64,000 bases of DNA. Source: Symbiodinium sp. CCMP2592 (taxonomy: Eukaryota; Sar; Dinophyceae; Suessiales; Symbiodiniaceae). The notes below the pieces were generated by a model. That model ran no database searches. It had not been told where the DNA came from and saw only the letters and a list, made by a program, of their open reading frames with translations. Positions 14,149 through 53,744 of this stretch are shown one piece after another (within the stretch, counting starts at the first letter, position 1; each line of letters begins with the position of its first letter). A program made the position numbers and the translations under genes. The stretch covers positions 1 through 64,000 of the forward strand of contig CAJNDT010000007.1 of the NCBI GenBank assembly GCA_905221615.1, in the 5' to 3' direction.

Positions 14149-14418
14149 TTAATATCTTGAGCATAAACGGCTGCCGATTTAGGGATCGCACTTGAAGGCT
14201 TAGTAGCTTGGCTTGCGACGCTCACACTCAAGAGAGACACGACACACACAGCACTCCTGAAAGCTTCTGTCGTTTTTCACCAGCGGTGACAAGGGGTACC
14301 TTGGTGCAATGAGGCATTTAGCCTCAAACCTGCAGCTACGGATGGCGGAACGTCATCGCCTGGCGGAACAAACATCGCCTGCAAAAGGATATGTAAACCG
14401 AAATCAAGAATTCTCCCC
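14149..14418 (-). repeat. beta2 terminal repeat of the YR retrotransposon
   Basis: 270 bp, nearly identical to 14837-15106; one T/C difference (CTT/CCT at about 14264) was noticed. On the plus strand it starts with TTAATATCTTGAGC, the reverse complement of a 14-mer near the end of the alpha repeats. Confidence 0.92.
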
Positions 14419-14565
14419 GAGAACGCATTATGAGCGAAGCACGCGCGGTCGCGCTGACCGGATCGGCTGGGGTGTGCAAAGTGATTGGATTCACGCATGC
14501 GGCACTCGGCTGCAAGGGCGTCACTCGCAGCAAGGTCTGAGATGCAATTGGTGTGGGTGGGCGGG
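14419..14565. other. 147-bp unique spacer between alpha2 and beta2
   Basis: Found once in the element. It separates the internal alpha2 copy from the terminal beta2 copy. No gene is seen in it. Confidence 0.7.
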
Positions 14566-14836
14566 GAAAGAAAAATTTCTGCAACCTTACATGTGCAAGA
14601 CTTGTGGCTTGTTCAGTGAAGTCCAGCATAGTGTCACTGACGTTTATGCAAAACCGGCTTCGAGATGCCTTGAGATGACGAGCGCGGGTGACAGAAGATG
14701 CAATATAGCAACACTCGGCGCTCACACAACAGAAAACTTTTGGCAGCCATTTTCTTTAAAAATCCAGGCCCGATTTTTCAAGAAAATTCACGCTCAAGAT
14801 ATTAAGGGACTATCAGCGCTCGCACTGACGGCCTCC
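14566..14836 (-). repeat. alpha2 internal repeat of the YR retrotransposon
   Basis: 271 bp that appears identical to 22995-23265. It abuts beta1 directly at 14836/14837, the junction expected for the internal B1-A2 of split direct repeats. Confidence 0.92.
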
Positions 14837-15106
14837 TTAATATCTTGAGCATAAACGGCTGCCGATTTAGGGATCGCACTTGAAGGCTTAGTAGCTTGGC
14901 TTGCGACGCTCACACTCAAGAGAGACACGACACACACAGCACTCCTGAAAGCCTCTGTCGTTTTTCACCAGCGGTGACAAGGGGTACCTTGGTGCAATGA
15001 GGCATTTAGCCTCAAACCTGCAGCTACGGATGGCGGAACGTCATCGCCTGGCGGAACAAACATCGCCTGCAAAAGGATATGTAAACCGAAATCAAGAATT
15101 CTCCCC
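14837..15106 (-). repeat. beta1 internal repeat of the YR retrotransposon
   Basis: The 270-bp internal copy of the left-terminal repeat. It ends 16 bp from the stop codon of the RNase H frame. Confidence 0.92.
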
Positions 15107-15121
15107 TTCTTATCCGTTGTA

Positions 15122-15814
15122 TTACTTGACTAAGATGCCCAAGACTTCGGACACGATGTCCTCGCACGGGAAGTGAGGGACGGGGCAACCTGACACGGTG
15201 AAGCTTTTCAGCACTTCACGCGAAGGCGTGTCTGCGATGTTCGCTGGTGACGGAACACGAGCGAACCACGAAAAAGTTTTGGCTAAGGATTCCACTGTTA
15301 AAAGAAGTGATGCAAGCGATTTGCCTACATCATTCCGTGATGTGCCACTGATTGACACGTCTCTAGCGGAGTTATTATCCACAAAAATCACAGCAGGTTT
15401 TCCCCTAAGCCAATCTTTCCATAGGACATAAGCGATCACGATTGTTGCAAGTTCCGCCTCGAAGATGATGGTCTTGGACCTTCCCTCTCCTAGTAGACGC
15501 TTCTGGAAACAGGACAATTCTTCGGAGAAAAATCCAAGGGGATGGCCTTTGTGGTCAAAGCAGACTCCGCCTATGCCGCAGAAAGTACCTCCACTCACCT
15601 CGGAATACGAGGCATCAGTGAAGATATACACTGGATCTGCCGACACATCTCTCAGCACGCGCGGCCAGTTGGCTTCAAGCAGGTCGGCAAACTGAAGCAT
15701 AGCTTGCTTCGCGTCGTTGCTAAGGTTTGCCTTGGTCGAGCAACCTTCACCAGCTAGGGCGGCCACGCATAGCCGGCCGGCTCTTCCGAAGAGCTGGCCC
15801 CCTGCGAAGACCAT
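15122..15814 (-). CDS. RNase H domain of the YR retrotransposon polyprotein
   Basis: This 230-residue frame carries all four RNase H1-type acidic residues in order: D67 in YIFTDAS, E119 in IIFEAEL, D146 in VIFVDNNSA and D195 in NIADTPSR. It would degrade RNA in the RNA-DNA hybrid during reverse transcription. The N-terminal text (MVFAGGQLFGRAGRLCVAAL) continues the RT connection domain, so it is part of the RT polyprotein. It overlaps the upstream RT frame by 61 bp in another frame. The join reads naturally from ADDPALTQKDLSRIRGRM, still inside the overlap zone, so a frameshift lies near 15.87 kb. That shift is either an inactivating indel or a programmed one. The beta1 repeat follows directly. 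Confidence 0.88.
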   Translation of the reverse strand: MVFAGGQLFGRAGRLCVAALAGEGCSTKANLSNDAKQAMLQFADLLEANWPRVLRDVSADPVYIFTDASYSEVSGGTFCGIGGVCFDHKGHPLGFFSEELSCFQKRLLGEGRSKTIIFEAELATIVIAYVLWKDWLRGKPAVIFVDNNSARDVSISGTSRNDVGKSLASLLLTVESLAKTFSWFARVPSPANIADTPSREVLKSFTVSGCPVPHFPCEDIVSEVLGILVK

Positions 15815-17682
15815 GCGACCCCGAATGCGCGACAGGTCCTTCTGGGTGAGAGCTGGATCATCAGCTGCATGGCGAGCGTGGCCGAAACCTCCAAGATGCG
15901 CTTGTCCGTATTCTGGAACAGGACTTCCCCTTGCAAAAATCGTTCGAAGCTAACCCGTACCCCAAGCGCAGCAAAACTCTCAGCAAAGGGCTTGTCTTTG
16001 TCCTCCGAGACTTTCCACCCTAGCAACCTGAACAATGATGATATTGCTAGGTCAACTGCTTTGGCCTCGATCTGAGTCGCCAGACTCAAAAAGTCGTCGA
16101 AGAAATGCGACCAAATCAACTTCAGTGCCCAGCACCCAATGTACCACATAGAGTGCGCCACTCTCAAATACGAAAACACCGCTCTGGTCGCCCCGAATGG
16201 GAGCGCAAGCATTTGCCTTACGATCACTTTGCGTTCGCGGTGGCTGAAGTATGCAATGTAAGCTTCCTTGAGGTCGTCTGGAGACACAAACATTTGCCTG
16301 TAGGCGCTCTTTAAGTCGAACGTCTTCCCTAGCATGGGAGTCCCAGGCAGCTGTCTAAGACAGGCCAAGGCCATGGCGGCCACCACATCGAGGGATTGAG
16401 GTTTGGGGCTCTCGGTGGTTTGGACAGACCCATTAACACCACTATCACTCAGGTCGTCTATCAAGCGAATCTTACCTGACTGCTCGATCGCAAACCTCCT
16501 GCTGATTGTGGCGCCTTCCGGCAAATCGGCCGGGTCTATCGGCTCGGACAACCAGCCGAGTTCCACTTCTTCGTCGACCTTTTGCTCTAGCGCTTCATCC
16601 AGGTGACCCTGCGATTTGATCGCATCGATGATCTTCTGGCGGGACTCACTAGCTTTGGAGCGCAGCTGTTCCGAAGTCCTTTTTGCTGGCTTAAAGGCCC
16701 CAGGAAAGACCCCTGTGCAAGGGGTCTGACCTGTCAAGTGCACTCCTTCGAGCATTTCGTCCAGCACTCCAATGTCAGGATATTTGAGATCCTCTAGAAT
16801 CTCACGCCACAATAAAATCCTTTTTGGTAGGACGATCTTCCTGGCGTACTCGGGGAGAGAGCTCTTGAGCTTCTTTTCGTCCCCCGAAAGTTCAGCTGCA
16901 CGTTCGGTCCACTTTGCAAACCATTCGGCTCTGAGGCCGGCTCTATCGGCCGGCGTTGTTTTTGCATTTACGTCTATGCTGTGGCTCAGTGCGGAAGGCA
17001 GTAGCGAGTCAAACTTTTTGGGATGTCCCGCTTGAACCGCTTTATGTATGAACTCTTCTGGAGACCAAGATATGCCCCAAGCCAATTCAAGTCGATCACT
17101 TCCCTTCTTATCCGCTCGGAGTAATTGACTGTGGGCTGGCACGGGCCCAGCAGGCGCGAAGCGCGAGTCAGACCACGGCTCGGGCAGTCGGGCGCGAAGG
17201 GTCGGCAAGGAAGTGGCATCACTTGGGCCGGTCATTACAAGCACAGCTTTGTGCTCGGGGACAAGAGGCGGCACGGCAGAAGCCTTGGGCTGAAGGCCGG
17301 AAGTGGCCCTCATGGCTGCAAGGGAGGGCTCGGCCTCGGGCAGAAAAGTAACTGCTCTAGCGAAGCATTGAGCGATGGCGGTGGCGAGCTGCGGCGGGTA
17401 AGCGCTTGCACTGGCGGTGGCAAAGGAGCCGTCTTCAGAACGACCCCACGGCAAATGTTGGGCAGCACAGGCACCGCCGGGACAGACGCGATGCAAAGCA
17501 TGGAAGGCTTGGTGGTTGTGGCAAAGGCGAGTCCACTTGGGCCGGCGACCGCCAAAGGCACAGTGTTGAAAACCAGTATGCATAGGAGGAGGCCGCAGCA
17601 GCCCAGAAGCTGGTGGACCAGTAGAGACTACTCCGCGGATTTTCCACGGCAATGATGAGGTTGCGGTGATGGGCCTCAGCAC
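15754..17682 (-). CDS. reverse transcriptase frame of the YR retrotransposon, with the end of the methyltransferase domain
   Basis: 642-residue frame. Residues 35-100 (FQHCAFGGRRPKWTRLCHN, HLPWG, then FATASASAYPP) are the C-terminal signature that follows the methyltransferase-like domain in dinoflagellate elements, so this frame continues the 17435-18778 frame after a shift near 17.6 kb. RT motifs are IRLIDDLSDSGVN (about 405-417), the palm Asp in KTFDLKSAYRQM (about 453-464), LPFGATRAVF, and the catalytic FFDDFL (527-532) in place of YxDD. The enzyme would copy element RNA into cDNA. It is preceded by a basic, helical linker of about 250 residues. Apart from the two frame changes, the domain looks intact. 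Confidence 0.92.
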   Translation of the reverse strand: MLRPITATSSLPWKIRGVVSTGPPASGLLRPPPMHTGFQHCAFGGRRPKWTRLCHNHQAFHALHRVCPGGACAAQHLPWGRSEDGSFATASASAYPPQLATAIAQCFARAVTFLPEAEPSLAAMRATSGLQPKASAVPPLVPEHKAVLVMTGPSDATSLPTLRARLPEPWSDSRFAPAGPVPAHSQLLRADKKGSDRLELAWGISWSPEEFIHKAVQAGHPKKFDSLLPSALSHSIDVNAKTTPADRAGLRAEWFAKWTERAAELSGDEKKLKSSLPEYARKIVLPKRILLWREILEDLKYPDIGVLDEMLEGVHLTGQTPCTGVFPGAFKPAKRTSEQLRSKASESRQKIIDAIKSQGHLDEALEQKVDEEVELGWLSEPIDPADLPEGATISRRFAIEQSGKIRLIDDLSDSGVNGSVQTTESPKPQSLDVVAAMALACLRQLPGTPMLGKTFDLKSAYRQMFVSPDDLKEAYIAYFSHRERKVIVRQMLALPFGATRAVFSYLRVAHSMWYIGCWALKLIWSHFFDDFLSLATQIEAKAVDLAISSLFRLLGWKVSEDKDKPFAESFAALGVRVSFERFLQGEVLFQNTDKRILEVSATLAMQLMIQLSPRRTCRAFGVAWSSQGASSSEEPAGYAWPP

Positions 17683-18778
17683 AGATGGTAGTCGTAAAGT
17701 GGTACAGCTGATTAGCCCTGTTGACGCGCACCAGGTTGAGACCAGACAGATGGGGCAGTCCGTCGGGAAAAGTTAGTGATCGCAGCGGGGCGGGAGAAGG
17801 CCCAGGGAGCGCAATCTCCCGGACGCGAGAGCTGGTGCCACACGGTGGAGCGATGAAGACACCCACAACATGAGGGCTGGAAAGCCACATCATTGTCAAA
17901 CGCTGGCCCTCTTGCGTAGTCAGATCGGCCAACAGCACAGGACAGGCAGCATGATCCACGACCACGTGATCAACACCTTGGGCCCCGACAAAGCCACAGC
18001 GACGCAAGGCTGCGGTCACACGAGCTGTACCCGCAAAAATTTCAAGGACCACTGGGAATCGCGAAGCGATGCTTGGGCGCAAAGGCAGGAGCTCGCCAGT
18101 AGACAGGCTTGGCAAGCGAAAGGCAGTGTGCTGAAGAAGCTGGCGGTACTGAGCATCCAACTTGTGGAAATCATTGATTACGAAAGCGGCTAGCACAGTG
18201 CGATTTCCTGTCCACAGGCACGTCGCATGCAGCCGGTGCGCATCGAACTGGATCGGCTCATGCAGTTGCAGAACATGTCCCTTGGCGTCGGGATGCCCTG
18301 GGTCAGGACAAACCTCCTCACCAGCGCCCTCGATCCAAAGGCCACCGGCCTCAAACTTACTAAGCGGAATCAAAGCATTGGGGAAACCCAAATGATTGTT
18401 GAGGTCTTGGTGCGCAGGGGTGAGGGTGTTAACTAAAACCACGATGGAGGTAAACTCCAATTGTGGGAATGTATTCGAAACAAAGCTCGCCAAGACTTTA
18501 GACGAAAGTGGAAAATGATTGAGGTTGTGTCGGAGGCCGACTATGCCGCCATGCACATAGGCTCCAGTGGCCCAACTAAACTCACCAGGGAAGCGAGGTG
18601 ATTCGGGTTGCAGAAAAGAGACCAAGCCCAACACATCCTCAGCACACAAGGCACCGCGGGAAAGCAAGGTTTGGGCGTGCTGTTCACAAGGAGGGGATAT
18701 GGGATTGCATGCATCAGCCAGGTCTCCAGTTGCGACAAGAGACGAGGCAGGCTCAGACAAGAGTGAATCACGATGCAA
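17435..18778 (-). CDS. TET/JBP-like 2-oxoglutarate dioxygenase fused to a cytosine-methyltransferase-like domain
   Basis: 447-residue frame starting with ATG at 18778, 27 bp after the gag stop. Residues 110-200 have the 2OG-Fe(II) dioxygenase signature in its TET/JBP form: H123-x-D125 in TPAHQDLNNHLG, then LSKFEAGGLWIEG (the FxGG strand), a distal His in FDAHRLHATCLW (H184 best, H181 possible) and the oxoglutarate-binding R193 in TGNRTVLAAF. Residues 243-385 carry cytosine-methyltransferase-like motifs: motif I VLEIFAGTARVTAAL, motif IV FIAPPCGTSSR with catalytic Cys313, and motif VI IIAVENP. The domain then runs into the RT frame through a shift near 17.6 kb. Known families: TET/JBP enzymes oxidise 5-methyl-pyrimidines, and PPC-type enzymes methylate cytosine. 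That this protein does either is inference. The fusion suggests the element edits the modification state of its own DNA. Confidence 0.82.
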   Translation of the reverse strand: MHRDSLLSEPASSLVATGDLADACNPISPPCEQHAQTLLSRGALCAEDVLGLVSFLQPESPRFPGEFSWATGAYVHGGIVGLRHNLNHFPLSSKVLASFVSNTFPQLEFTSIVVLVNTLTPAHQDLNNHLGFPNALIPLSKFEAGGLWIEGAGEEVCPDPGHPDAKGHVLQLHEPIQFDAHRLHATCLWTGNRTVLAAFVINDFHKLDAQYRQLLQHTAFRLPSLSTGELLPLRPSIASRFPVVLEIFAGTARVTAALRRCGFVGAQGVDHVVVDHAACPVLLADLTTQEGQRLTMMWLSSPHVVGVFIAPPCGTSSRVREIALPGPSPAPLRSLTFPDGLPHLSGLNLVRVNRANQLYHFTTTICAEAHHRNLIIAVENPRSSLYWSTSFWAAAASSYAYWFSTLCLWRSPAQVDSPLPQPPSLPCFASRLSRRCLCCPTFAVGSF

Positions 18779-18805
18779 AACTGCTTCAGAGGGGATCGAA
18801 GGCGC

Positions 18806-20113
18806 TCAAGCGCCGGCGGCAGCACACTTGCGGATTGAGTGCGGCTGGAAACACCTGGCACAGACGTGCTGGTGAGGGCAGTCAGTGCGCTTGCACTCCT
18901 TCAAGTTGAACGCATAACAGATGCTCTTACCCTCAGGTGTGGTGGCATTTGCCTTCAGGTCAACAAGCTCCTTGGGCATCGCAGGACCACCTTTGGCACC
19001 TTTGCCTCGGCCTTTGCCTTTAGGGAGCTTCGTAGGAGGATCGGGGGTTGAAGGCCGAGAGGGATGACGCTTGCGGTTATTCTTGAACGGGAACTTGCCT
19101 TGGGGAGCCTGGTGCATGAGGGCAATGGACACCTCGTAGGATTCCAAAGCGCGGTGCATCTCTCGGTCAAGGGGACACTCGCCTGCGGTATCCCTCCTTG
19201 GTTTGACACCCCATTCGGCCAGCAGTGCAAACACCTGCTTGTCAGCGTTAACCAATTGTGTCACATTCACGCGATTGAGCCCTGGCGGCGGGTCACGGGA
19301 CAGGTGGTTAAAGAGACGATTCACATACCGATCGTAGGCATCATATGAAATCATCTGTGCAAACACCATGGCCAAACCTCGTCGTCGAAGGGCCTCCATG
19401 GTCTGGAGCGCATTGACCGGTTGATACTCAACGGCATCAGCGTCACTCTCGAGAACTATCTTGGATGCTTCGACCTGCAGCGCCTGATGGGTCGGTCTTG
19501 GATTCGTGAGTTCATGGGTGCGGCTCGTGACCTTCTCAGGCGGGATGTACTTAAGCAAGTTGTCTCGCTCTTGCTGACAACATGAATCCAACAGGGCATT
19601 GCTTGGCATGTTCACGCCCTCCAGCGTGATGCCTGGGAGGGCCGCCCTAAGATCGTTCAGTCTTCGGTCGCGCTCAGCTTCGGGAACACGACGAGGGGCA
19701 GATGATTGAGACCCGGATACTTGGTCGCGCAACTCAGCAACGACCAGAGTCTGGGACTCGAACACGAGCCTTTTCAAGCATGATTGATCACCCAGAGTCA
19801 TAACTGCAGCATTGTCGGCAACCCAATCTCGGAATATGGGTTCCGTGACTGGCTCACCTGGCGACGTGATGGTGTACGCCGCCTTGCCTACAGAGGTAAT
19901 GCCAAGGGCCTGAAGGATCGTCCACCCGGCACTGCTGAGGCCGACCTCATCCGACCGCCTTTTAAAGTGTGCACCGCTATCGATTAACGAGGACATGGCG
20001 AGCAAAAGGAGCTTCGGACAGTCCACTGTGCACGTCAAAACTCCGAGGTACCTGAACAGCAGCTGAAAGTAATGTAAAGCATCACACGATCTAAGATAAA
20101 GCGAGAAGAACAC
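18806..20113 (-). CDS. Gag-like protein of the YR retrotransposon with two C-terminal zinc fingers
   Basis: 435 residues, start at 20113. The N-terminal three quarters are helical without a named domain. A Lys/Gly/Pro-rich basic region follows (KGKGRGKGAKGG). The C-terminus carries two cysteine motifs in tandem: a CCCH finger (C-x7-C-x4-C-x3-H in CYAFNLKECKRTDCPHQH), then a zinc knuckle C-x2-C-x3-H-x4-C (CARCFQPHSIRKC). Basic region plus knuckle is what a nucleocapsid-type RNA-binding Gag needs. The order recombinase-Gag-polyprotein and the tight spacing to the next frame (27 bp) suggest a shared transcript. The frame is intact. The Gag role is inferred from position and zinc fingers. Confidence 0.75.
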   Translation of the reverse strand: MFFSLYLRSCDALHYFQLLFRYLGVLTCTVDCPKLLLLAMSSLIDSGAHFKRRSDEVGLSSAGWTILQALGITSVGKAAYTITSPGEPVTEPIFRDWVADNAAVMTLGDQSCLKRLVFESQTLVVAELRDQVSGSQSSAPRRVPEAERDRRLNDLRAALPGITLEGVNMPSNALLDSCCQQERDNLLKYIPPEKVTSRTHELTNPRPTHQALQVEASKIVLESDADAVEYQPVNALQTMEALRRRGLAMVFAQMISYDAYDRYVNRLFNHLSRDPPPGLNRVNVTQLVNADKQVFALLAEWGVKPRRDTAGECPLDREMHRALESYEVSIALMHQAPQGKFPFKNNRKRHPSRPSTPDPPTKLPKGKGRGKGAKGGPAMPKELVDLKANATTPEGKSICYAFNLKECKRTDCPHQHVCARCFQPHSIRKCAAAGA

Positions 20114-20371
20114 AACATGAACTTCATGACATGATCAAAACATGTTTTATCCTCGGCCAATACTGCAGTAACTCAATGTTCGCACTGCACTCACAAAACT
20201 GCAAGTCAAGCGGAGTCTAATTCAGCACACTGCCGCGCTTCACTGTCCCTGGCAACAACATGTCCCACTGCAGACGATCACTCTTTAACTGGACTCGAAT
20301 CGCAATCAAAGACCTTCTAGGTCCTGGCACTTCGCCCTTCGCCAAAAAGGCGGAAAGTCGGCATCTAGCCT
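20114..20371. other. spacer between recombinase and Gag frames
   Basis: 258 bp with no open frame of note. A splice acceptor or re-initiation site for gag could lie here, but none is clear. Confidence 0.5.
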
Positions 20372-22654
20372 TCAGCGCTTCCCAATCCGCACACAAGCGC
20401 GACACCTCCGGAAACTCATATGTGCTTGCGCCGCTTGAACCATGACCTCTGAGGTCCTTCCGCATGTGGCGATTAGATTTCCACCTCCAGACACAAATTT
20501 CAAGAGGTGAAGGGTCCTGGTCCTGGAATTGGCCACACAGTCGGCGGCATCCCACTGCTCGATTTCCAGGCGGGGCGCTTTGATCGGCGCAATTGACTCG
20601 GACGACGAGTCGGAGTCGTCTTGTGACTCGGAATCGCTGCTTTCGCTGCTACTTGAAGAATGCTGCCCCTCGGACTCAGCCCGCTCGGACGCTGAATCAT
20701 TGATGATTTCAACCTTCGCCTTGACAGCCGCCCTGAATTCGGGCGCTTGTGGCACCACAGTTGGTGCTGGGGGATCTGTAAAGTACAAGGCTCGGGCAGC
20801 ATCTGGGTGGAACGATCCTGCGGCCACTGCTTGGCACATAGGCTCAAGAGCCCTAACAGCTTTCAAGGCTTCCTCCTTAGCATAGACGGGCACGCTTCCT
20901 TTGACACACTTACTGTGACGCCCAAGCAAAGCCAAAATCCCGTCATCAAGACAAAACTTGGAGCCCCAATCAAGCAGGGTTCTCTTCAACGAGTGAGATG
21001 TGACCATTGACACATCTGACCCAGCCCGCTCAAGGACCATTTTCAACATGGTTGCGCACTCCGACGACCTTAGGCTTCGTCGACCTGGGGCAGCATCACC
21101 GGGCCTAAAGGGCCTGAAGAGGCCCGCGCCGACAGTCCCATCCAAGGTGAGGCCCACGCGCTCAAATACATCAGTAGCCAACCCCAGCCAGTCGCCTTTC
21201 ACGATGCCCTTACTTGAAACTATAACCGGCAACAAATCATTTTTCTTTGCAATGGTTTGTGCCGTCTTATGGAATCTGAGGCGGATCTCCAGGTATCCGC
21301 TGCACTGGCGATCAAAGTCTGCTATCACTTCTTCTACAAGAACCAAATCGCTGTGTCTGGCTCTTGCGTAGAGTGCAAGAAGAAGGTAGGCACAGATGGC
21401 TCGGTCCCAGATTGGTGCACTCTCGTCCTCTAGCACGCCATGCATGAAGCGAACCTCTGACACCTTGAGAGGCCGGGCTCGGTTGGTCGCCTTCTTTTTG
21501 ACACCCAGCTGGGCACTGAGGCCCAGAATTCTACGGCTCGCAAGAACCTCGGACACACTCAGCCCCAGAACGAAGTTCGCAAAGCGCAAAGCTGAAATGA
21601 GGGAGGCTGCACGGGTCGGAGCTGCCTTCTCTTTCTTCAAGTAAGAAATGAAGCTCCACACAGAATCCTCACAAAATGGCTTCTCGTAACCTTCCTTGTC
21701 ACACCATCTCAAGTATGCAAGGATCGCGTTGGCGCGCTTCACAACCGTGTGAGGACTACGAAGACCTACACAAGCTGATACGATGCCAAACACTTCGTCT
21801 GTTGCATCTTTGGAAGAGGCTGCTTGTGCAAGTTCAGGTGACAAACGGTCGACATCGGTGCGGCAAATGATGTGCTGCAGTTTGCACACCGCTCGGTCCA
21901 TGACCATATCACGCTCGTCGCTCGGATGTACATCCTTGAAGGATTTGAATGCCCTGCTCGCGATGTCAGCTGAAGGTATGGGAGGCTCAGGGATCTTTGG
22001 CTCCGCCGGCGGCACATGTGCTGGGACTAAGGGGCCAGGCATCTTAAGCACAAGGTTATCAAAGGGATTAGTTAAGCCCTCATCCCCAAAGATGGCTCTG
22101 AAGACTCCTCTCTCCCAAGGCAGGGCAGGAGATGCCACGGCAGTACGTGAGCGCTCATCGCCCACAGCACGAGCAATCCTACCAGGACGGACCTCTTCTC
22201 CAAAGTCTCTTTTGCTGGCACTTGGCACCAATGAAAAATGCGACTCACTCATGGCCCTAACATCTTCATACCAAGCAGTGTTTTCATCTCCCGACCCCAA
22301 AAGGGAAAGGGAAGGGGCTTGCTCATCTGGCTCGCAGAGGGATGCTAAATGGGCCTCGAAGTGATTGGGGTTAAACCCTACGGGAGGGGAAGGTGGAAAC
22401 TCGTGAGTTTGCTGCTGGACTTCGACTTCAGAGACAGGCGCTGTGAAGTCATCGGTAAACCCTTCGAAGTCACCAGTAAATCCTACAAACCCCCAGTTAT
22501 CCGCAGAAGCAGATGCAGGAGATGGATTTGCAGGAAAGGCATCCCCAAGATCGGGCACGGGTGCAAAGGGAAGGTCAGGGGGCCCAAAAGTGGCCTGCGC
22601 CGGAGGCAAGACACCGTCGAGCTGCTCGCGGGTGACACCAGCAAGTTGCTGCAA
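20372..22654 (-). CDS. tyrosine recombinase of the retrotransposon
   Basis: 760 residues. The first 220 are acidic and Pro-rich without a recognised fold. Residues 295-380 resemble a SAM-like core-binding domain (SPHTVVKRANAILAYLRW, SVWSFISYLKKEK). The catalytic domain has the expected order: first Arg in LLLALYARARHSDL (R431/R433), H554-x-x-R558 in VTSHSLKRTLLDWG, H580 in LLGRHSK and the nucleophile Tyr591 in VPVYAKEEA. It would cut and join the circular cDNA at its target through a covalent 3'-phosphotyrosine link. A Ser/Asp/Glu-rich tail follows (SSSSSESSDSESQDDSDSSS). The frame is intact and has all catalytic residues, so this could be an active copy. Confidence 0.9.
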   Translation of the reverse strand: MQQLAGVTREQLDGVLPPAQATFGPPDLPFAPVPDLGDAFPANPSPASASADNWGFVGFTGDFEGFTDDFTAPVSEVEVQQQTHEFPPSPPVGFNPNHFEAHLASLCEPDEQAPSLSLLGSGDENTAWYEDVRAMSESHFSLVPSASKRDFGEEVRPGRIARAVGDERSRTAVASPALPWERGVFRAIFGDEGLTNPFDNLVLKMPGPLVPAHVPPAEPKIPEPPIPSADIASRAFKSFKDVHPSDERDMVMDRAVCKLQHIICRTDVDRLSPELAQAASSKDATDEVFGIVSACVGLRSPHTVVKRANAILAYLRWCDKEGYEKPFCEDSVWSFISYLKKEKAAPTRAASLISALRFANFVLGLSVSEVLASRRILGLSAQLGVKKKATNRARPLKVSEVRFMHGVLEDESAPIWDRAICAYLLLALYARARHSDLVLVEEVIADFDRQCSGYLEIRLRFHKTAQTIAKKNDLLPVIVSSKGIVKGDWLGLATDVFERVGLTLDGTVGAGLFRPFRPGDAAPGRRSLRSSECATMLKMVLERAGSDVSMVTSHSLKRTLLDWGSKFCLDDGILALLGRHSKCVKGSVPVYAKEEALKAVRALEPMCQAVAAGSFHPDAARALYFTDPPAPTVVPQAPEFRAAVKAKVEIINDSASERAESEGQHSSSSSESSDSESQDDSDSSSESIAPIKAPRLEIEQWDAADCVANSRTRTLHLLKFVSGGGNLIATCGRTSEVMVQAAQAHMSFRRCRACVRIGKR

Positions 22655-22681
22655 GATGCTGGCACTAAAGGTATTCAGGGC

Positions 22682-22981
22682 TTAATCTGAGGCAGACTGC
22701 ACGCCAGGCTCAAGAAATACCCGACAGGCAGCCCTCAAGCTCTGAATGATCCCTTCGAGCCACGAGAGACGTTGGTGGTGGCCGGTCTGGTTCACCCAGG
22801 CACGAGCAAGGGACTCTTCCAAAGCTTGCAATGCTGACCTGAGAGTTTGGATTTCAGCACGGAGGGCGTTGACCTCCAATTGGAGTTCGTAAATGTGCTG
22901 ACTGTGGAGCTCGCGGGTGCTGGTAGAGCTGTCCTCGGAACGGCCTGAAGAACCGGCGGCGAGGGCGTCGCCGAAGTCCAT
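22682..22981 (-). CDS. small coiled-coil ORF at the 5' end of the YR retrotransposon
   Basis: 99-residue frame starting 14 bp inside the alpha1 repeat. Residues 28-62 form a leucine-zipper-like coiled coil (YELQLEVNALRAEIQTLRSA, then LQALEESLARAW). It ends 27 bp before the recombinase start, in the same orientation. Function is unknown; multimerisation of the element's particles is a guess. The alternative frame over 22792-23154 reads into the repeat and is a shadow. Confidence 0.5.
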   Translation of the reverse strand: MDFGDALAAGSSGRSEDSSTSTRELHSQHIYELQLEVNALRAEIQTLRSALQALEESLARAWVNQTGHHQRLSWLEGIIQSLRAACRVFLEPGVQSASD

Positions 22982-22994
22982 GGGACGACCCGGC

Positions 22995-23265
22995 GAAAGA
23001 AAAATTTCTGCAACCTTACATGTGCAAGACTTGTGGCTTGTTCAGTGAAGTCCAGCATAGTGTCACTGACGTTTATGCAAAACCGGCTTCGAGATGCCTT
23101 GAGATGACGAGCGCGGGTGACAGAAGATGCAATATAGCAACACTCGGCGCTCACACAACAGAAAACTTTTGGCAGCCATTTTCTTTAAAAATCCAGGCCC
23201 GATTTTTCAAGAAAATTCACGCTCAAGATATTAAGGGACTATCAGCGCTCGCACTGACGGCCTCC
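22995..23265 (-). repeat. alpha1 terminal repeat (5' end) of the YR retrotransposon
   Basis: 271 bp matching 14566-14836 throughout. It is the likely promoter-bearing end for the minus-strand transcript. It contains the 14-mer GCTCAAGATATTAA about 30 bp from its outer end. Confidence 0.92.
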
Positions 23266-28090: not shown

Positions 28091-30047
28091 CTATCCTCGC
28101 GCGGCGGGTTTTGAAGTCCAAGCCGAGCTAGCCCGTAGGCCTGGTAGAGCTCCTCCCAGAGGACGTGAGTGTGATGCATGAAGCTCTAAAGCCGCAACGA
28201 TGCCCCACCAATGGGAAGGGGAGGCAATGATCAACGGGCCTGTGGGCCGCGAGCTGCCTGCCGTGAGGCATTGGCGGGCGTCCTCTCCAGACATGGTAAA
28301 GCGCCCAGCCTTGTCAATAAGGCAGATGTCAACCGCACCCGTGGTTCCAGCACACACCGTGGTGGTGAATAGGTCAACAAAGGCGCCCAATTCATTGTGA
28401 TGGTTATAAAGGAAGGTGAAGAGAGATGCAGCCTGCTCCACAGTGGCTAGCCGTCCCGGGGGAGGGAGCTCCGGCAATCGTTGCGCAATGAACTCAGCGA
28501 AGGAGGTGCCCTCTGCGGCAACCCTGTGTGCGTCACCAGTGTCGGCATTGGCCGGGCGCGCGTTACTGAGGCCGAGACCATGCTTCAGGGAGTCAAAGAC
28601 CCGGTGGTCGGCGTGACGACCGTTATTTTCCGGCCTGCCTGAACCGCAAACCGATGTCCGCACACATTGTAAGCCAAAACCAACAGGACACAAAACCACT
28701 CCACCAAGCTCCCTTGGTGTGTGGCCGAAGACGCCTGCTTCGGCAGCCGAACGAAATAAACTCCCGGCTGATGAAAGCCATCGGCCGTGATTCGTTGCAG
28801 CCTCCGCGCGGGGGTGTCCGCCGCCAATTCACCAATCGTAATCGGACACGGAGAGGAGTCAGTGGCCTCGTGCAAGACATTGGACTGCGGATACCGCACG
28901 GCGGTGCTGAGCAGGTAAAGGTCGGCGAGCAATCGCGTGGAGGCGACCAGGGCTAAGTTCAAGCAGACCCCATTGATATGTGGGCACACCCGATCTCCCA
29001 CCCTCGTGACACCGGAATATGGGATGAAGTAGGTAAGCCCTTCTCGGGTAACCCGGCAGCCGCGGAGGTCCCGAAGATCCGAGTCGAGGCCAACCTCTAC
29101 TTCGCCTTCAACTCCAAAAGACACTCCGACAACTTCCGGCATACAGTGAGGCTGGTGCCCTGGGGTGGCTCAGCGCCCTGATGGCCATTGTGGCGGTGTC
29201 TGAGGCTAGACCACTGAACTGTGTGTAGCGGCCCATCCGGGGAGGTAGAGTGCACCAAGCCACGCAGTGCATCGGCTAGCCGCCCCGGGGAGACGGGTTA
29301 AGGAGCAAGCTGAGCAATACCACGGATGCCAACTGGCTTGGCGATGAGGCGGGCCAGTGTACGCAGTTGCACCTCACCTTTGCCACCTCCAGCGGGCTGT
29401 CGGGGGTCACCTGTGCGAATGACAAGCTGGCGCTCAGCATTGGCCAGAATGGCAGCGTAGGAAGGCTGCCCCTCCTGTTGCCCCTCGTCGATCACAATGA
29501 CGTGCGCATTGTTGAGGAAACTCTTTACTTCACTGTAGGAGGCATAGCGGAGCTGAAGCGCGGCTGACCCCTGTGTGAGCAGTAGCATGTGGGCGCTACT
29601 GACCGAAGGTGAAGCATGACGCGCACTGTGCCCCTTCACCCCAGGCTGGGTCGTGGCGACGTCCCCAAGCCCTTCCGCTGCTTCCGTGAAGGGCACGTGG
29701 TCGAAGCACGTGTCGATCATTTCAGCATCGCCAGAGACCCTCCGTACGACTATGAGCGGGCGCAACCATTCCGGGGCATCAGCCAAGAGGTTGGAAGCGA
29801 TACGCACGACTGCGATGAGCGCAGAATGCTGCTGAGCTGTCCAAAACACTGTTTGCTCCAACACAGCGTCCATGCAGACCAGTGCACACCAGAGGGAGAA
29901 GGTCTTGGATGAGCCTGCGCAGCCCAAAATGCCCAGCGAGCTGCGTTCGGTGGCGCGGGCGGCCAGGATGGCCGAGATGTGCCCAATAAGAAGGCCGTCC
30001 GGACTGGCGAGCAACTCATCGATGTGTCGACAAAAGGTCTGTCCCAT
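28091..30047 (-). pseudogene. UPF1-like SF1 helicase domain, in several frames
   Basis: The helicase motifs follow in order on the minus strand. Frame 30047-29298 has motif I LGCAGSSKT (residues 41-49), motif II VIDEGQQ (186-191) and motif III RTGDPRQP (211-218). Frame 29142-28585 ends with ITVVTPTTGSL, the motif IV position. Frame 28699-28091 has FTTTVCAGTTGAVDICLID (motif V) and CLTAGSSRPTGPLIIAS (motif VI with its Arg). The set matches the SF1 superfamily, closest in style to UPF1/ZNFX1-type helicases, which unwind RNA or DNA with ATP. The phases disagree between blocks and motif V lacks its usual Gln, so the copy is probably inactive. It is continuous with the hydrolase frame upstream. 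Confidence 0.7.
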
Positions 30048-30648
30048 AAGGGCGGCTAGCGGCTAGGGCTAGGGTGTGCAACTCAGGCGGGATCAAAGTC
30101 GCAGGCAAACGCCAGTCTTTGCTGAAGGCATCCCGAGGATTAGAGCGCTCGGCCACCAGGTGGAGGGCGAGGATCCTTTTCTTGAGTGCGACAAACTGGG
30201 CCGGTGTCAAGTTCGGGGGAGCTGGGAAGTGAGGAGCTTGGGCGGCTGCCTCAACAGCTTGCAGGAAAGACAGTACAAGGTGTGCCTCAGTAGCAAAGTG
30301 GCACCTAGGCCGAGGCGCAGGTTGGGTGAACGGCCGGACGGGCATGCCAATGGCCAGGGGGACACGCGCCGCAGGCATCTTCAGTACTTGCAGAAAGACG
30401 TCCAGTGCCCCCCCAACTTTAATACACGTCACACTGCGCAAAGCGAGGTCCCAACGGCAAACATGGTCAGGTTGCGGGGAAGCCCCAAGAAAAGCGGGCC
30501 ACTGGCTGACGAGCAGGAGGGCGGCAATGGGGTTAAGGCGGTTGTGGCGGCGTTGTGCCTTACGCTGCTCGCGGGTTTTACCACTGACCTTGTCAGGAAC
30601 CACCAGCTCTACGAAGACTGCCAGGAGGTTGCCTTGACGAAACTCCAT
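30016..30648 (-). pseudogene. linker region between hydrolase and helicase domains
   Basis: A 210-residue frame bridging the two enzymes. It overlaps the helicase frame by 32 bp and the hydrolase frame by 56 bp in other phases. Readable pieces include NRLNPIAALLLVSQWPAFLG, FATEAHLVLSFLQAVEAAAQ and TPAQFVALKKRILALHLVAE, a helical text without known motifs. It is probably part of a single polyprotein. Confidence 0.45.
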
Positions 30649-32791
30649 CCTCAGAAGGCAGCCCTCGGAGGGCGGCCGATTGCCGCTTTGGCGATGCGAG
30701 AACCAGCCAGTGTCCTGTGATGGCGCAAAGCCAGTCCTCCACCTTCAGCACAACCGGTAACGCCGGGTTGAAGCGTCTGGTGGTGTCCTGGTGCGACATC
30801 CGTCTGTTCTCCTGCCCCGTATCCTCAAGCGCCGCGCCTTGGCTATAGACATGGAAGTGCAGAAAATCCACGACGCGCTCAAGCGACAGCTTTCCGAGGG
30901 AGGTCTGGACAGGAGCAGGCAATGGCAGGCTGACCGACTTTGCCTCCTCATAACATCTAAGCCTGACCGCCTGAATGATCCAGGTGCGTAGCTCCGCAAC
31001 ACAATGCGGCAGAGAAGCTGCTGTGACGGTGCGGATGGCCCCGAGAAGAGGCGGGGGCAAGGAATCAATGGCAGCAAGCTGCTTGATTGCCTCCACTGTG
31101 ACGCGGTGCGGGAAGAGTGCATCCATTACCTTTCCAACCTCGCTATCCACAAGACCCCTGCTATGGTAAAAATGAAGGGAGTGGAAGGCCCACTCCAGTT
31201 CTTTTTCCATATTTCGCATGGGGAGGAAGGCACGTGCGGCGGAGACATCCACCTGGGCCGGTAGTGTCTGGTCAGTACGCAGGAGCAAGTGGGAGTAGTT
31301 GTGGCACTGAGGCCCGAAAAGCTCGCCCGGCACATTGACTAACCAATGCATACCTCCCGCACAAATACCTGGGGCGACCAGTATGGCGGCCCGAGCAAAA
31401 TCAGTGAGCACCCAAGGGCACAAAAAGTCTTCGCTCGCATGGATGATGCGCAGCCTACAGGGGAGGCGCAGGAGTGCCTCAAACAGCCAGTCCGGCATGC
31501 CAACGGCACCAATGTCTACGGCTGCTGGCCGCGCAGCCTCGTCCGTCGCTCCCCCGGAGGTGGCGGTCGAACCCACGGGAAGGAAGTGGCTGCTGCCCCA
31601 TAACTTGTGAAGGAGCACTCCCACAAGGCCCGCCGTGTAGCTGCCTGCAGAGAAGCCACGGACGACGGGCCGCCCTGGGCCAACACTTGAAAAGGCAATG
31701 CACAGGGCCGCAAGACACGCGGAATGTGGATCCTGCAAGTGGGAGCTGCGTCGTGCCCTCTGGAGCTGCGTGGCTATCATTCTAGGTTGCGGGCTGGAAG
31801 CAGTGAACTTAACGTCCAACAAAGCGTGCGCTAACTGGATAACCGGCAGGGGTGAGAGCAAGAGACTGGTATACCGACCCGCCGAGCTGAGCCTCGCGGA
31901 GGCCGTCGCCGACAACTTGGAAAATGTCTCCGCAAGACACCCGGTGGGGCCGTAGCACTGCGTGGAACACATGAGCTGCCAAGCGTCGTTGCGAGCCGGG
32001 GCGCGAAATGTACTGGCGCCGGAGCACTCAATGCGAACCTCAGCAGACGTCGAGGGGTTGCCCCCAGGACACTCGTCCTCATCCGCATGAACCATGTCGA
32101 AGCCCTTGACCGCTCGATAGAAGTAGGTTGCCAGCTCTTGGTCGGTGACTTCCAGGGTCCACATGTTCTCCCCCGCGGGGGATGGGGTGGACGCCTCTGC
32201 CATCCGTTGTAACTCAGCTGCCGGCAGGAGAGCCCAAATTCTCCACCGCGCCCATGCGCGCATGTGATACGAGAAGCGTGGCCGCATCGTGCGGCGGAAC
32301 GGGAGGACTCGTCGCGCCCCGGGCCCCTGGAAGTGCTCTGGGGCTACAACGCTGAAGCCCGGGCCGCCCATCAAGCCCAGACCCGATACGGCCCACCACG
32401 GCGGAGTTCCTCGCCACCCCCAAAAAGCCTCAGCTAGGGTGGGCAAGGAGCGGAGACTCTCCAGCTGTGCCAGCGGGGCCTTGCCGTTAGTTCCATAACC
32501 GTGCACGGCCAGGGAAGAGGTAGGGCCCCGGCAGGCTGCACACTCGGCAGCTCGGCAGAGGCTCGAGCTCAATGCGAAAAGGGTGGAGTTAGCGCACTGC
32601 TCGTGGGCCCCTCTGGCCCAGCCCAAGGCCTCCCCGTGCGGCTGCAAGACTTCCCGCAACGAGTCATCGGGATTGGGGGTCTTCATGCTCGCACTGAAGA
32701 AGCCCTGGTCATTTGGAAGGCAGCTGAAGAACGGCTCCCAGGTATGCCCAAGCAGTGACAACATCGCCACTGTGTCGCGCCTGTGCGCCAA
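30593..32791 (-). CDS. alpha/beta-hydrolase-like domain of the hydrolase-helicase gene
   Basis: 732-residue open frame. A serine-hydrolase nucleophile elbow is seen at GFSAGS (S381, in VVRGFSAGSYTAGLVGVLL). An acid follows in HASEDFLCPW (D455) and a His in HNYSHLLL (H501). Order and spacing fit an alpha/beta hydrolase, so it could cleave an ester, amide or lipid; the substrate is unknown. The N-terminal 170 residues (TNGKAPLAQLESLRSLPTL, GWRGTPPWW) recur in the partial copy at 37773-38273. In frame terms the true upstream protein (ending ERRTAELLA) is cut by the 966-bp transposon at 32813-33778, so the apparent ATG at 32791 is unlikely to be the native start. Confidence 0.6.
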   Translation of the reverse strand: MAHRRDTVAMLSLLGHTWEPFFSCLPNDQGFFSASMKTPNPDDSLREVLQPHGEALGWARGAHEQCANSTLFALSSSLCRAAECAACRGPTSSLAVHGYGTNGKAPLAQLESLRSLPTLAEAFWGWRGTPPWWAVSGLGLMGGPGFSVVAPEHFQGPGARRVLPFRRTMRPRFSYHMRAWARWRIWALLPAAELQRMAEASTPSPAGENMWTLEVTDQELATYFYRAVKGFDMVHADEDECPGGNPSTSAEVRIECSGASTFRAPARNDAWQLMCSTQCYGPTGCLAETFSKLSATASARLSSAGRYTSLLLSPLPVIQLAHALLDVKFTASSPQPRMIATQLQRARRSSHLQDPHSACLAALCIAFSSVGPGRPVVRGFSAGSYTAGLVGVLLHKLWGSSHFLPVGSTATSGGATDEAARPAAVDIGAVGMPDWLFEALLRLPCRLRIIHASEDFLCPWVLTDFARAAILVAPGICAGGMHWLVNVPGELFGPQCHNYSHLLLRTDQTLPAQVDVSAARAFLPMRNMEKELEWAFHSLHFYHSRGLVDSEVGKVMDALFPHRVTVEAIKQLAAIDSLPPPLLGAIRTVTAASLPHCVAELRTWIIQAVRLRCYEEAKSVSLPLPAPVQTSLGKLSLERVVDFLHFHVYSQGAALEDTGQENRRMSHQDTTRRFNPALPVVLKVEDWLCAITGHWLVLASPKRQSAALRGLPSEDGVSSRQPPGSLRRAGGS

Positions 32792-32804
32792 AGAGTGGAG
32801 TGCC

Positions 32805-32812
32805 AGCTAAAA
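32805..32812. repeat. left target-site duplication AGCTAAAA
   Basis: The 8 bp match 33779-33786 exactly. The single uninterrupted copy is present in the paralogous empty site near 37751-37758 (reverse complement). Confidence 0.93.
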
Positions 32813-49355: not shown

Positions 49356-50192
49356 TCAATGAAACACGCAACAACCGATCCGCCCCTCTTGTTGAACTAT
49401 CGCCGTCACCAATCCTGCCTCCGGGTTGCATGAGTGGTGTGCTGTTCGCGGGACCAGATGTGCGCATGGCACATCCGCGCCCATCCAGTGAGTGTGCCTT
49501 CCGCTCCACCGCCACCGGCGAGCTGGGACGCGGCGCGGTTGCCAATCGGGCGTCGGCGTTCGTTGCGCAACCGCCGCGATGAGGCCATTCCACCAGCGGC
49601 AGAAGCATACAATTGGTTCAAGATGTGATGTCATAATGGAAAAGCCGCTGTTGTGTGGACATTGATGTTCCTCCACGTCGTTCCACAGGCAAAGCATTTC
49701 CATACGTTCGAAGACAAGCGGCAACATGAAGGTTTGCTCGGTTTCGGCGAGCGCTACGGATGTGCTCGTCGCCAGTAGGCTGTTCGGGCGCTCGCCACGG
49801 AGGCCTTCAAGGAGCGTCGATGCCAAGGCGCGCTGCAACATGCGCAGCCTAGCCTCCCCAACCCCACCACTTGCAATCGCAGCCCGCGCGGCCAGTCCGT
49901 GAATGCCCATGCCTGCAATGCCATTGATCGGGGCGCGTGGCTTCCTGAGACACGTTAGCCGACTGCGTTGCGACCAGAGTTGCCCTCCGTGGGCTCCCAG
50001 AAAAAAGCGACTGAACGGCAGCTGGCACACAGCCGTGGCAGTTTCGGCATAGAGCATGTTACGGCATGCGTTATTGTTAAACACTTCGAAGCCTGCCGCC
50101 TGGTCTGTGTAGCTGCCCAGGCGTCGAAGCCAGCAACACGCGAAAATGTTCCGCACGCATGCCAAGGAGCGACGGAGCACCGCGCTCGCCAC
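49356..50192 (-). pseudogene. LINE 3'-region remnant
   Basis: Minus-strand text such as GMGIHGLAARAAIASGGVGE, MLQRALASTLLEGLRGERP and FCRWWNGLIAAVAQR is like the C-terminal end of dinoflagellate non-LTR retrotransposons (compare RWSGLLAVAAQRAYAATLLE at 54.1 kb). The reading frame is mixed with unrelated text and no poly(A) is seen. Confidence 0.45.
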
Positions 50193-51429
50193 CCGCGCAT
50201 TGCCGTTGGAGCATGCCGTCGCGCGCGTCTGCCGTGAAGCTGGCGCGCGGGTCGCACGCCACGTGCAGCATCAGGCCCAGCCTGCGAGTCCAGCAGGGCA
50301 GCCGAGGCAGCGTCGGGACTGGCGGCTGCTTGCAGCGGTCCCAATGCAACAGAGGCATACAAAGGCCCGGCGGTGCAAAGCCCACCTGCGCACTACGCAA
50401 GGTGGTAGGCAAGTGGAGGTGACTCGGCAGAGTGAGCGAGGACGTCCCTGAGCAAAGGTGGCCCGTCATCGACGATGGCTTTGTTGGCGATTGGCAAGGA
50501 GAGCAAGCTGGTAGCGAAGGACAGAGCCGCTGCCCCGACCATGGCAACGAAGGCAGCGGCAGAGCAGTGCGTGCTCGTGCTCGGGCCAACAACCGGCGAC
50601 CACAACGGAAGTCCATTAGCAATGACCTCAATGCCCCGCTCATCCTGCCTTGCAGCTTGGAGGTTGAAATCGCGGACCAGCACATTGGTAACCACAGTGG
50701 CTCCGGCTTCGCGACACTTGCACTCCAGATTTTTCTTCTGTTTTGCGACAGCACGAAAGCAACCGTCCGGTCCCTCTGCACACTGCAAACTACGAGGACG
50801 AGGATCATGGTGCGGGCAGGCGAGCTGTCTAGCCGGTGCTCGGCGAGCACGTCGCTGAAGTCAGGGGGCGAGCCATCGACGCTGGCAGCGCCGTGGAGTG
50901 GCAGTGACAACAGTGAAGCTGCAGAGGACCTGGCAGCGGCAAAAGCGAGAAACCCAGACCATCGCTGCAGTACTGCTGGCACGCAGGTGGGGGGGTGCGG
51001 ACCGTGCCCGGCTGCGGGAGAGGAGTCGCACGAACTGGACGGCCTCAGTGCTCCAGCGTCCAGCGACCTCGATGGCAAGCAGCCGCCCCAGAGGGGTAGA
51101 CTGTTGGCGATAACCTCGATGCGCCGGTCGTCGTGCCTCTGGGTCGCTATGTTGAAGTCGCGAAGGAAGACATGGGCTGCGACAGTAGCCCCGGCCTCTC
51201 TGCAGATGCGTGCGGCGGCCCGCTCCAAGGGAATGCCGCGACCGCGGAGGAGTCCAGCACCCGAGCAGGCTGCACGGTGATCGCCGAGTGAATCAAGATG
51301 AATGCCACAACGGCAGGCCGCAGCATCGAGAGGCAGTGGGAGGCGCAGACGCCGGAGCAGGAGAACACGGTAAGCCGCTGAATCAACCGGCAGCGAGAAG
51401 CTCACTCCACGCCGGCACAGTAAGACCAT
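50077..51429 (-). pseudogene. LINE C-terminal domain, at least two truncated copies in tandem
   Basis: The frame starts with the post-RT cysteine motif of non-LTR elements (CRCGIHLDSLGDHRAAC). It continues with ICREAGATVAAHVFLRDFN and RRIEVIANSLPLWGG (a restriction-like C-terminal region) and FAAARSSAASLLSLPLHGAA. In a neighbouring frame at 50788-50393 a second copy repeats CREAGATVVTNVLVRDFN and GIEVIANGLPLW. At the left end LLGMRAEHFRVLLA starts a piece of a further copy. The copies run head to tail on the minus strand, each 5'-truncated. They are inactive. Confidence 0.75.
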
Positions 51430-51830
51430 GGTTGGTCAGGGCGACTGCAGCACCTTGGAGCGACGCGAGGCAACGAATGTGGCATGCAGGACCTGCGAGT
51501 TGTTGCAAGAGCTGGTCGCAGAAGTCGCTCTCGCGGGCCGTGATGGCGCGGAGCGAATCTGCCCAACAGGCGAAAAAGGCGGCGGGGGCATGGCGCCCCA
51601 ACCGAGCGCTGTGGCCGCAGAGGCTGGCAGCTCGGCTCGAGCAAGGAGTTCGGCGACACCATGAAGGGTTTCGAAGTGGTTTCGACACCGGTCGAGCAAA
51701 GGACGCATGATGTCGGCGGTGTAGCCCGACGGCCCGGGGGCGAGCGCCGCAAGTTGGAGATGATGGTGGCCCGGGGCAGTGTAAGGGGCGATGCGGGTGA
51801 CCACTGCAAGATGTTGGGGTTAAGGGGCAA
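51430..51830 (-). pseudogene. LINE fragment from just upstream of the RT domain
   Basis: Minus-strand frame 51804-51436 reads APGPSGYTADIMRPLLDRCR, then NHFETLHGVAELLARAELP. This is the conserved 'GPSG..AEH.RPLL' segment that precedes RT in dinoflagellate LINEs. The RT core itself is missing here. Confidence 0.65.
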
Positions 51831-53722: not shown

Positions 53723-53744
53723 CTTGAGCCAAAATGGCTACGGT
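53723..53744 (-). other. dinoflagellate spliced-leader (DinoSL) relic, 22 nt
   Basis: The minus strand reads ACCGTAGCC, ATTTT, GGCTCAAG without a gap. It agrees at all 22 positions with the known leader (first base D = A). In a genome the leader normally occurs only in leader-RNA genes, where it is followed by GT. Here it is followed by AT and a second relic, so this is a copy of a trans-spliced mRNA put back into DNA. Confidence 0.92.

Follow-up and report, generated by a model that had tools for sequence, protein, structure and literature searches.

A 64,000-nucleotide stretch of Symbiodinium sp. CCMP2592 (contig CAJNDT010000007.1, positions 1 to 64,000; hereafter the window) contains a 9,117-bp retrotransposon at 14149..23265, in which a 2-oxoglutarate dioxygenase-like (2OG) domain is fused to a cytosine-C5-methyltransferase-like (MT) domain within pol. 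A fusion of this kind inside a dinoflagellate tyrosine-recombinase (YR) retrotransposon had been proposed in an earlier note made from the sequence of the window, and was borne out by predicted folds, conserved active-site and YR residues, a Tet_JBP profile match in a related subfamily (F5), split direct repeats, and a 21-mer elsewhere in the window that matches the dinoflagellate spliced leader exactly. The best overall explanation, to which we assign a probability of roughly 0.57, is that the Gag-Pol of a group of YR retrotransposons carries a TET/JBP-like 2OG domain and a miniature C5-MT ahead of the reverse transcriptase (RT). The window element is a young copy with a broken frame, and it belongs to a large dinoflagellate group of such elements that diversified long ago. 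All features of the element described below lie on the (−) strand.

The 2OG domain and the N-terminal part of the MT domain are encoded by pol frame A (17435..18805; 456 amino acids [aa] stop to stop). The earlier note had given this frame as 17435..18778; the frame itself stood, while the true open reading frame (ORF) opens at 18805, nine residues upstream of 18778, so that the residues previously numbered H123, D125, H184, and R193 become H132, D134, H193, and R202. The HxD, distal His, Arg, FAGT, PPCGTS, and ENP motifs that it had listed are present, and its FxGG is actually FEAGG, i.e., FxxGG. Its reading of all domains in one frame holds for the 2OG domain and the start of the MT, but a second frame encodes the RT and the remainder of the MT. 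Homology of frame A to relatives stops at ∼17.58 kb, and pol passes from frame A to frame B (17772-15754) and then to frame A again (RNase H, 15949-15122). Because the MT end and RT lie in frame B and RNase H lies back in frame A, the window copy is considered broken by two frame changes. Among 7992 database candidates scored, 17 proteins matched the window frame at E ≤ 1e-3 (best 6e-119). In the same genome (1.098-Gb assembly, 5383 contigs), at least 96 matches were found, the window's own included; some of these represent one copy split in two, and duplicated contigs may account for some of the identical pairs. A chance match of motifs is ruled out by these database and genomic matches and by the conservation of active-site residues. 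A Pfam scan of the window frame found neither a 2OG nor an MT domain, and the profiles and folds of relatives were therefore used. A sequence search of the PDB with the window frame gave 0 matches, a PDB search with profile A5 gave six with no oxygenase or C5-methyltransferase among them (7qcb is METTL27), and none of 34 pattern-matching stretches from IMG/VR was confirmed as a relative.

Related copies fall into several types. Subfamilies F1 (the window and L031), F2 (L032), F3 (L033), and F4 (L034) each have YR, gag, TGA, and a single pol frame which, read to its end, encodes 2OG-MT-RT-RNase H in 1215 to 1279 codons. Open pol frames elsewhere in the genome measure 1215 to 1285 codons, and for 40 of the 96 genomic matches (counted by eye) the surrounding open frame is 1200 codons or longer and the match itself is free of stops (F1, 3; F2, 16; F3, 10; F4, 11). 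Openness alone does not guarantee function: one F1 frame (L012) lacks D134. In F5 (L035), gag and TGA are followed by a frame encoding 2OG-MT; 709 codons of it were read, reaching the start of RT and covering 70 residues of the stretch used for RT comparison. In a sixth type (L051; G000:C2416), the MT (frame residues 35–356) precedes the 2OG domain (∼436–637), followed by the start of an RT; the sequence beyond matches the RT protein P0012. A seventh type (L050; G000:C703; F6) has the MT directly after gag, then RT, and a profile search found no 2OG domain in it. These MT-2OG-RT and MT-only types, each read from one copy, rule out the propositions that domain order is fixed and that the 2OG domain is present in all relatives, respectively. 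The L051 type may be numerous (29 frames of 1258–1310 aa among 87 match rows share its RT match), and the L050 type has probably multiplied recently (15 frames of 1024–1025 aa, 13 with equal RT score). Among database proteins, P0019 (864 aa) combines 2OG-MT with the beginning of RT in a single frame, and P0027 has an apparent RNase H-2OG-MT order by eye.

The 2OG domain occupies frame residues 50–232 (18110..18658). Residue conservation was evaluated in 52 distinct sequences, with each position covered by 47. The H132-x-D134 iron-ligand motif (18404..18412) is conserved in 46/47 and 45/47 sequences for His and Asp, respectively; H193, the distal iron ligand (18227..18229), in 46/47; and R202, the Arg expected to bind 2-oxoglutarate (18200..18202), in 47/47, while the neighboring H190 is kept in only 30/47. 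The active-site exceptions are D to G in L012, D to E in P0033, H to G in P0042, and H193 to R in L015. Fold matches were obtained in which all four active-site residues are present, and related elements also carry the domain. For models of both the window domain and its relative P0003 (predicted local distance difference test score 86.6), Foldseek placed CcTet first among oxygenases, above AlkB. Pfam scans of family members found Tet_JBP (PF12851) in nine and 2OG-FeII_Oxy_3 in one; the best Tet_JBP matches, 26.7 bits (E = 3.6e-6) in F5 pol and 29.6 bits in a genome scan, fall under the curated cut-off of 34.9 bits. Two structural comparisons qualify a TET assignment. For P0003, P4H/PKHD-type oxygenases scored within a factor of ∼2 of CcTet in Foldseek and had higher target-normalized template modeling (TM) scores. 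For the window model, VIA-align tied ALKBH5, ABH2, and AlkB with TETs within 1 Z. VIA-align of P0003 returned methyltransferases in its 50 rows and was uninformative on the 2OG part. The TET/JBP identity advanced in the earlier note thus survives in part, with CcTet as top fold and sub-cutoff Tet_JBP matches on one side, and no member above the Pfam cut-off and the proximity of AlkB and P4H on the other. Judged by profile and predicted fold, the domain is TET/JBP-like rather than a filed TET/JBP member. Both the 2OG and MT domains are very probably DNA- or RNA-modifying enzymes, a confidence limited by P4H-type oxygenases scoring near CcTet.

In the short C5-MT-like domain (17360..18058), motifs I (picked by eye), IV (PPCGTSS), and VI (ENP) are read in frame A, and motifs VIII (FGGRRPKWT) and X (AYPPQLATAI) are read in frame B. 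The MT part of P0003 has a predicted fold resembling DNMT3 (nearest) and M.HhaI. F1 and F2 display PPCGTSS, ENP, FGGxRPK, and AYPPxLA in order; departures include ENP rather than ENV in all, APC in F4, ∼40 missing residues in F3, and an unmatched X pattern in F5. Across the profiles relevant to both domains (PF12851, the 2OG families, and PF00145), the window frame had no match, relatives matched Tet_JBP below cut-off, and no PF00145 match at E ≤ 1 was found among 36 family members. By eye, no overlap is seen between the 124 PF00145 matches listed for the genome and either the 96 element matches or the four genomic Tet_JBP matches described below. As a separate observation, 32 of these 124 lie in similar frames of 530–608 aa, perhaps corresponding to the SymbioLINE-Dnmt elements described by de Mendoza et al.

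Selection on the domains was assessed from ratios of nonsynonymous to synonymous substitution (dN/dS; Nei-Gojobori) in 23 of 34 loci, after removal of identical starts and of frames under 500 codons (three short ones kept), in pairs with dS of 0.03–1.5, which are not independent of one another. Median dN/dS for the 2OG domain was 0.062 in F1 (72/78 pairs; range 0–0.44) and 0.127 in F2 (21/28); for the MT, 0.172 (64/78; range 0–0.71) and 0.046 (23/28); and for the linker-RT, 0.227 (21/28) and 0.083 (22/28). Identity in the 2OG domain correlates with that in the MT (r = 0.83 over 28 pairs) and RT (r = 0.88 over 15 pairs) with a single F2 copy included, and r is 0.95 and 0.98, respectively, with three. 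As the 2OG, MT, and RT sequences co-diverge and RT identity falls to 25%, the 2OG-MT pair is old in the group. Since two domain orders exist, one domain must have moved or been acquired on two occasions, with the pair retained. Fusion, age, purifying selection, and occurrence in two orders together suggest a joint function of the MT and oxidase.

Self-comparison of the window element revealed the order A1-YR-gag-(TGA)-2OG-MT-RT-RNaseH-B1-A2-B2. Direct repeats A1 (22991..23265) and A2 (14562..14836) are 99.6% identical over 275 bp, as are B1 (14837..15106) and B2 (14149..14418) over 270 bp, indicating a recent insertion given this near identity within each pair. L031, on another contig, is 98.2% identical to the window element over 8990 columns and has the same left boundary, ends 127 bp into B2, and has a broken recombinase frame. 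The A-B-A-B arrangement was seen in the window element, L031, L032, and L033, with repeats 99–100% identical in the latter three; L034 shows the B pair only and runs off its contig. The B1/A2 junction (14792..14850) has inverted arms GCTCAAGATATTAA and TTAATATCTTGAGC around a core of ∼30 bp, recurs in L031, where the right arm shows a single difference, and is a plausible candidate recombinase site. Separately, AGCCGTTTATGCTCAAG at 14837-14860 (−), at the end of the B repeats, looks similar by eye to the 3′ portion of the spliced leader, which may be chance.

The 5′-most ORF (20372..22681; 769 aa stop to stop) encodes the tyrosine recombinase. Residues R442, K472, H563-S-L-K566, H589, and Y600 are invariant across the four subfamilies whose YR was read, and fit the pattern R-K-HxxR/K-H-Y, with the other three proteins only 23–31% identical to that of the window. 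The gag-like ORF (18806..20134) ends in a CCCH zinc-finger-like motif, read by eye. Pol frame B (15754..17772) contains the MT end, a linker, and RT motifs (FDLKSAYRQ, LPFGATR, and FFDDF; by eye). Pfam scans found no family in the window YR ORF, gag-like ORF, or frame B; in relatives, RVT_1 was found in P0012 (E = 9.5e-6) and L034 (E = 9.8e-5), both below cut-off. RNase H (15122..15949) was recognized from TDAS, FEAEL, VDNNS, and IADTPSR, with RT_RNaseH at E = 0.01, below cut-off. No integrase family was found in Pfam scans of the proteins of the window and relatives. Features of DIRS-order YR retrotransposons are therefore present in the form of YR, A-B-A-B split repeats, and RT and RNase H motifs.

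The gag-like frame and pol frame A are in the same phase and are parted by a single TGA (18806..18808). TGA is the separating codon in 28 of 28 loci in which pol directly follows a frame of at least 100 codons (several of the audited loci being near-identical copies), as well as in L035, L050, and L051; in the other six of the 34 loci audited, pol is interrupted by a stop at another point or the upstream frame is short. The initial Met of pol occurs at residue 305 in L031, 92 in L032, 96 in L033, 53 in L034, 35 in L035, 147 in L051, and 37 in L050. Given these positions, pol is probably made by TGA read-through, and the TGA-only junction suggests a conserved read-through signal.

DNMT-bearing DIRS and LINE elements are known in Symbiodinium (PMC5890265), and the DNMT of SymbioDIRS-Dnmt3 was proposed to methylate cDNA (de Mendoza et al. 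2018, PMC5890265). In the available portions of that paper, SymbioDIRS-Dnmt3 resembles the window element in its dinoflagellate host, A-coding-B-A-B repeats, separate YR ORF, cytosine methyltransferase in Pol with RT, and shuffled domain and ORF orders. In contrast, the published elements were counted by PF00145 and cluster with Dnmt3, whereas 36 members of the family of the window element gave no PF00145 match; "dioxygenase" and "TET" have 0 occurrences in the main text. An ordinary PF00145 element of this genome (L049), considered as a candidate SymbioDIRS-Dnmt3, was dropped, with one match of E = 0.2 to F1/F2/F4 pol and no 2OG match. TET/JBP-like dioxygenases also occur on fungal mobile elements (Kyakuja and others; PMC12730594), but those are DDE transposons and Helitrons rather than retrotransposons, and no fused methyltransferase is mentioned in the accessible sections; the same 2025 study found no TET/JBP-bearing retrotransposon and attempted to explain the absence. 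Capture of a 2OG dioxygenase by a retrotransposon is exemplified by the AlkB N6-methyladenosine (m6A) RNA demethylase of orchid Ty3/Gypsy elements (PMC9289625), which differs in being of AlkB type, in an additional ORF, and in a long terminal repeat element, with no methyltransferase mentioned in the text available. DIRS1, PAT, and Ngaro elements, as covered in the accessible part of PMC3266345, share YR, gag, and RT-RNase H, with an MT in pol (DIRS1) and split direct repeats (PAT); their MT is Dam-like and follows RNase H, whereas that of the window element is of C5 type and precedes RT. The window element further differs in its added 2OG domain and in having YR 5′-most on the same strand. 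Phage hypermodification cassettes likewise pair a C5-MT with TET/JBP, together with glycosyltransferases (PMC12730594, in part), although as phage genes rather than one retroelement polyprotein; no glycosyltransferase family was found in Pfam scans of the proteins of the window and relatives. Among the matches listed in open-licence literature (a body that excludes subscription papers and most preprints), no TET/JBP-bearing retrotransposon is described, and none is mentioned in the available text of PMC6338049, PMC11453091, PMC12344493, or PMC12477816.

Regarding function, we tentatively favor the possibility that the two enzymes act in series on element cDNA. Read-through of the TGA after gag would yield pol, and the enzymes would thereby travel with RT; the MT would methylate cytosine in element cDNA or circle, and the dioxygenase would oxidize that methyl group to leave a 5-hydroxymethylcytosine (5hmC)-type mark on element DNA prior to recombinase-mediated insertion of the new copy. 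This mechanism is favored by the Gag-Pol placement, by the presence of the fusion in both orders, and by the phage cassettes that pair a C5-MT with TET/JBP. The "writer plus oxidiser" of the earlier note may thus be one serial pathway, not two opposed activities. A more far-reaching version, in which Gag-Pol methylates its own cDNA cytosines and oxidizes them (or hydroxylates thymines) such that copies insert with a self-made oxidized base, is speculative and on balance unlikely. If true, the element enzymes could supply the oxidized pyrimidines (5hmC or 5-hydroxymethyluracil [5hmU]) of the dinoflagellate nucleus, a possible source because the only Tet_JBP-like matches found in the genome lie in elements.

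An alternative of similarly low probability is that the dioxygenase serves as an anti-silencing eraser, oxidizing host 5-methylcytosine on integrated copies, with the MT acting separately, e.g., to mark cDNA as self. Such a role has been proposed for fungal TET-bearing DNA transposons (PMC12730594, in part) and is compatible with the Tet_JBP-like match, but the oxidase-MT fusion in both orders and the Gag-Pol position favor action on cDNA during replication.

Dinoflagellate DNA is rich in 5hmU. A JBP-like thymine hydroxylase, whose 5hmU would make cDNA look like 5hmU-rich host DNA, is slightly less likely still. All four Tet_JBP matches at E ≤ 1e-3 in the 1.1-Gb genome, in an intron-blind scan, are in element frames, and repeats are enriched for 5hmU in Breviolum (PMC11071213, in part). 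This leaves the coupled C5-MT unexplained, and although no host TET/JBP gene was seen in that scan without intron splicing, an intron-split host enzyme would escape it. "JBP" and "dioxygenase" are absent from that 5hmU mapping paper. The elements offer many natural open-frame candidates for the maker of dinoflagellate 5hmU, and they make it possible to study whether mobile elements label their own DNA.

The tie of ALKBH5, ABH2, and AlkB with TETs on the window model, together with the functional AlkB of orchid Gypsy (PMC9289625, in part), would fit an AlkB-type RNA or repair dioxygenase stripping m6A or N1-methyladenosine from element RNA. This is improbable, as CcTet ranks above AlkB in Foldseek for both models, Tet_JBP outnumbers 2OG-FeII_Oxy_3 among family members, and the domain is fused to a C5-MT fold. 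A P4H-type hydroxylase acting on Gag-Pol or a host protein, with no tie to base marks, is more doubtful again; the P4H/PKHD scores for P0003 are set against the F5 Tet_JBP match and the MT fold that accompanies the 2OG domain in each of the six 2OG-bearing types read. That the domains are captured passengers, structural or decayed and with no catalytic role, is very improbable despite the shortened F3 MT, the F6 type without 2OG, and the broken window copy, since active-site residues are near invariant while the neighboring His drifts and dN/dS medians are well below 1.

Elsewhere in the window, the 21-mer exactly matching the dinoflagellate spliced leader is located at 53723-53743 (−), with 0.00 expected from 100 shuffles, and may be a leader gene copy or a retrogene relic beside degenerate frames at 49–54 kb. 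A degenerate frame at 50077-51435 (−) contains a CRCGIHLDSLGDHRAAC stretch, which resembles the C terminus of long interspersed nuclear element (LINE) reverse transcriptases. Broken frames at 29298-32806 (−) include a piece similar to superfamily-1/AAA_30 helicases (E = 3.4e-4, under the cut-off), perhaps from another decayed mobile element.

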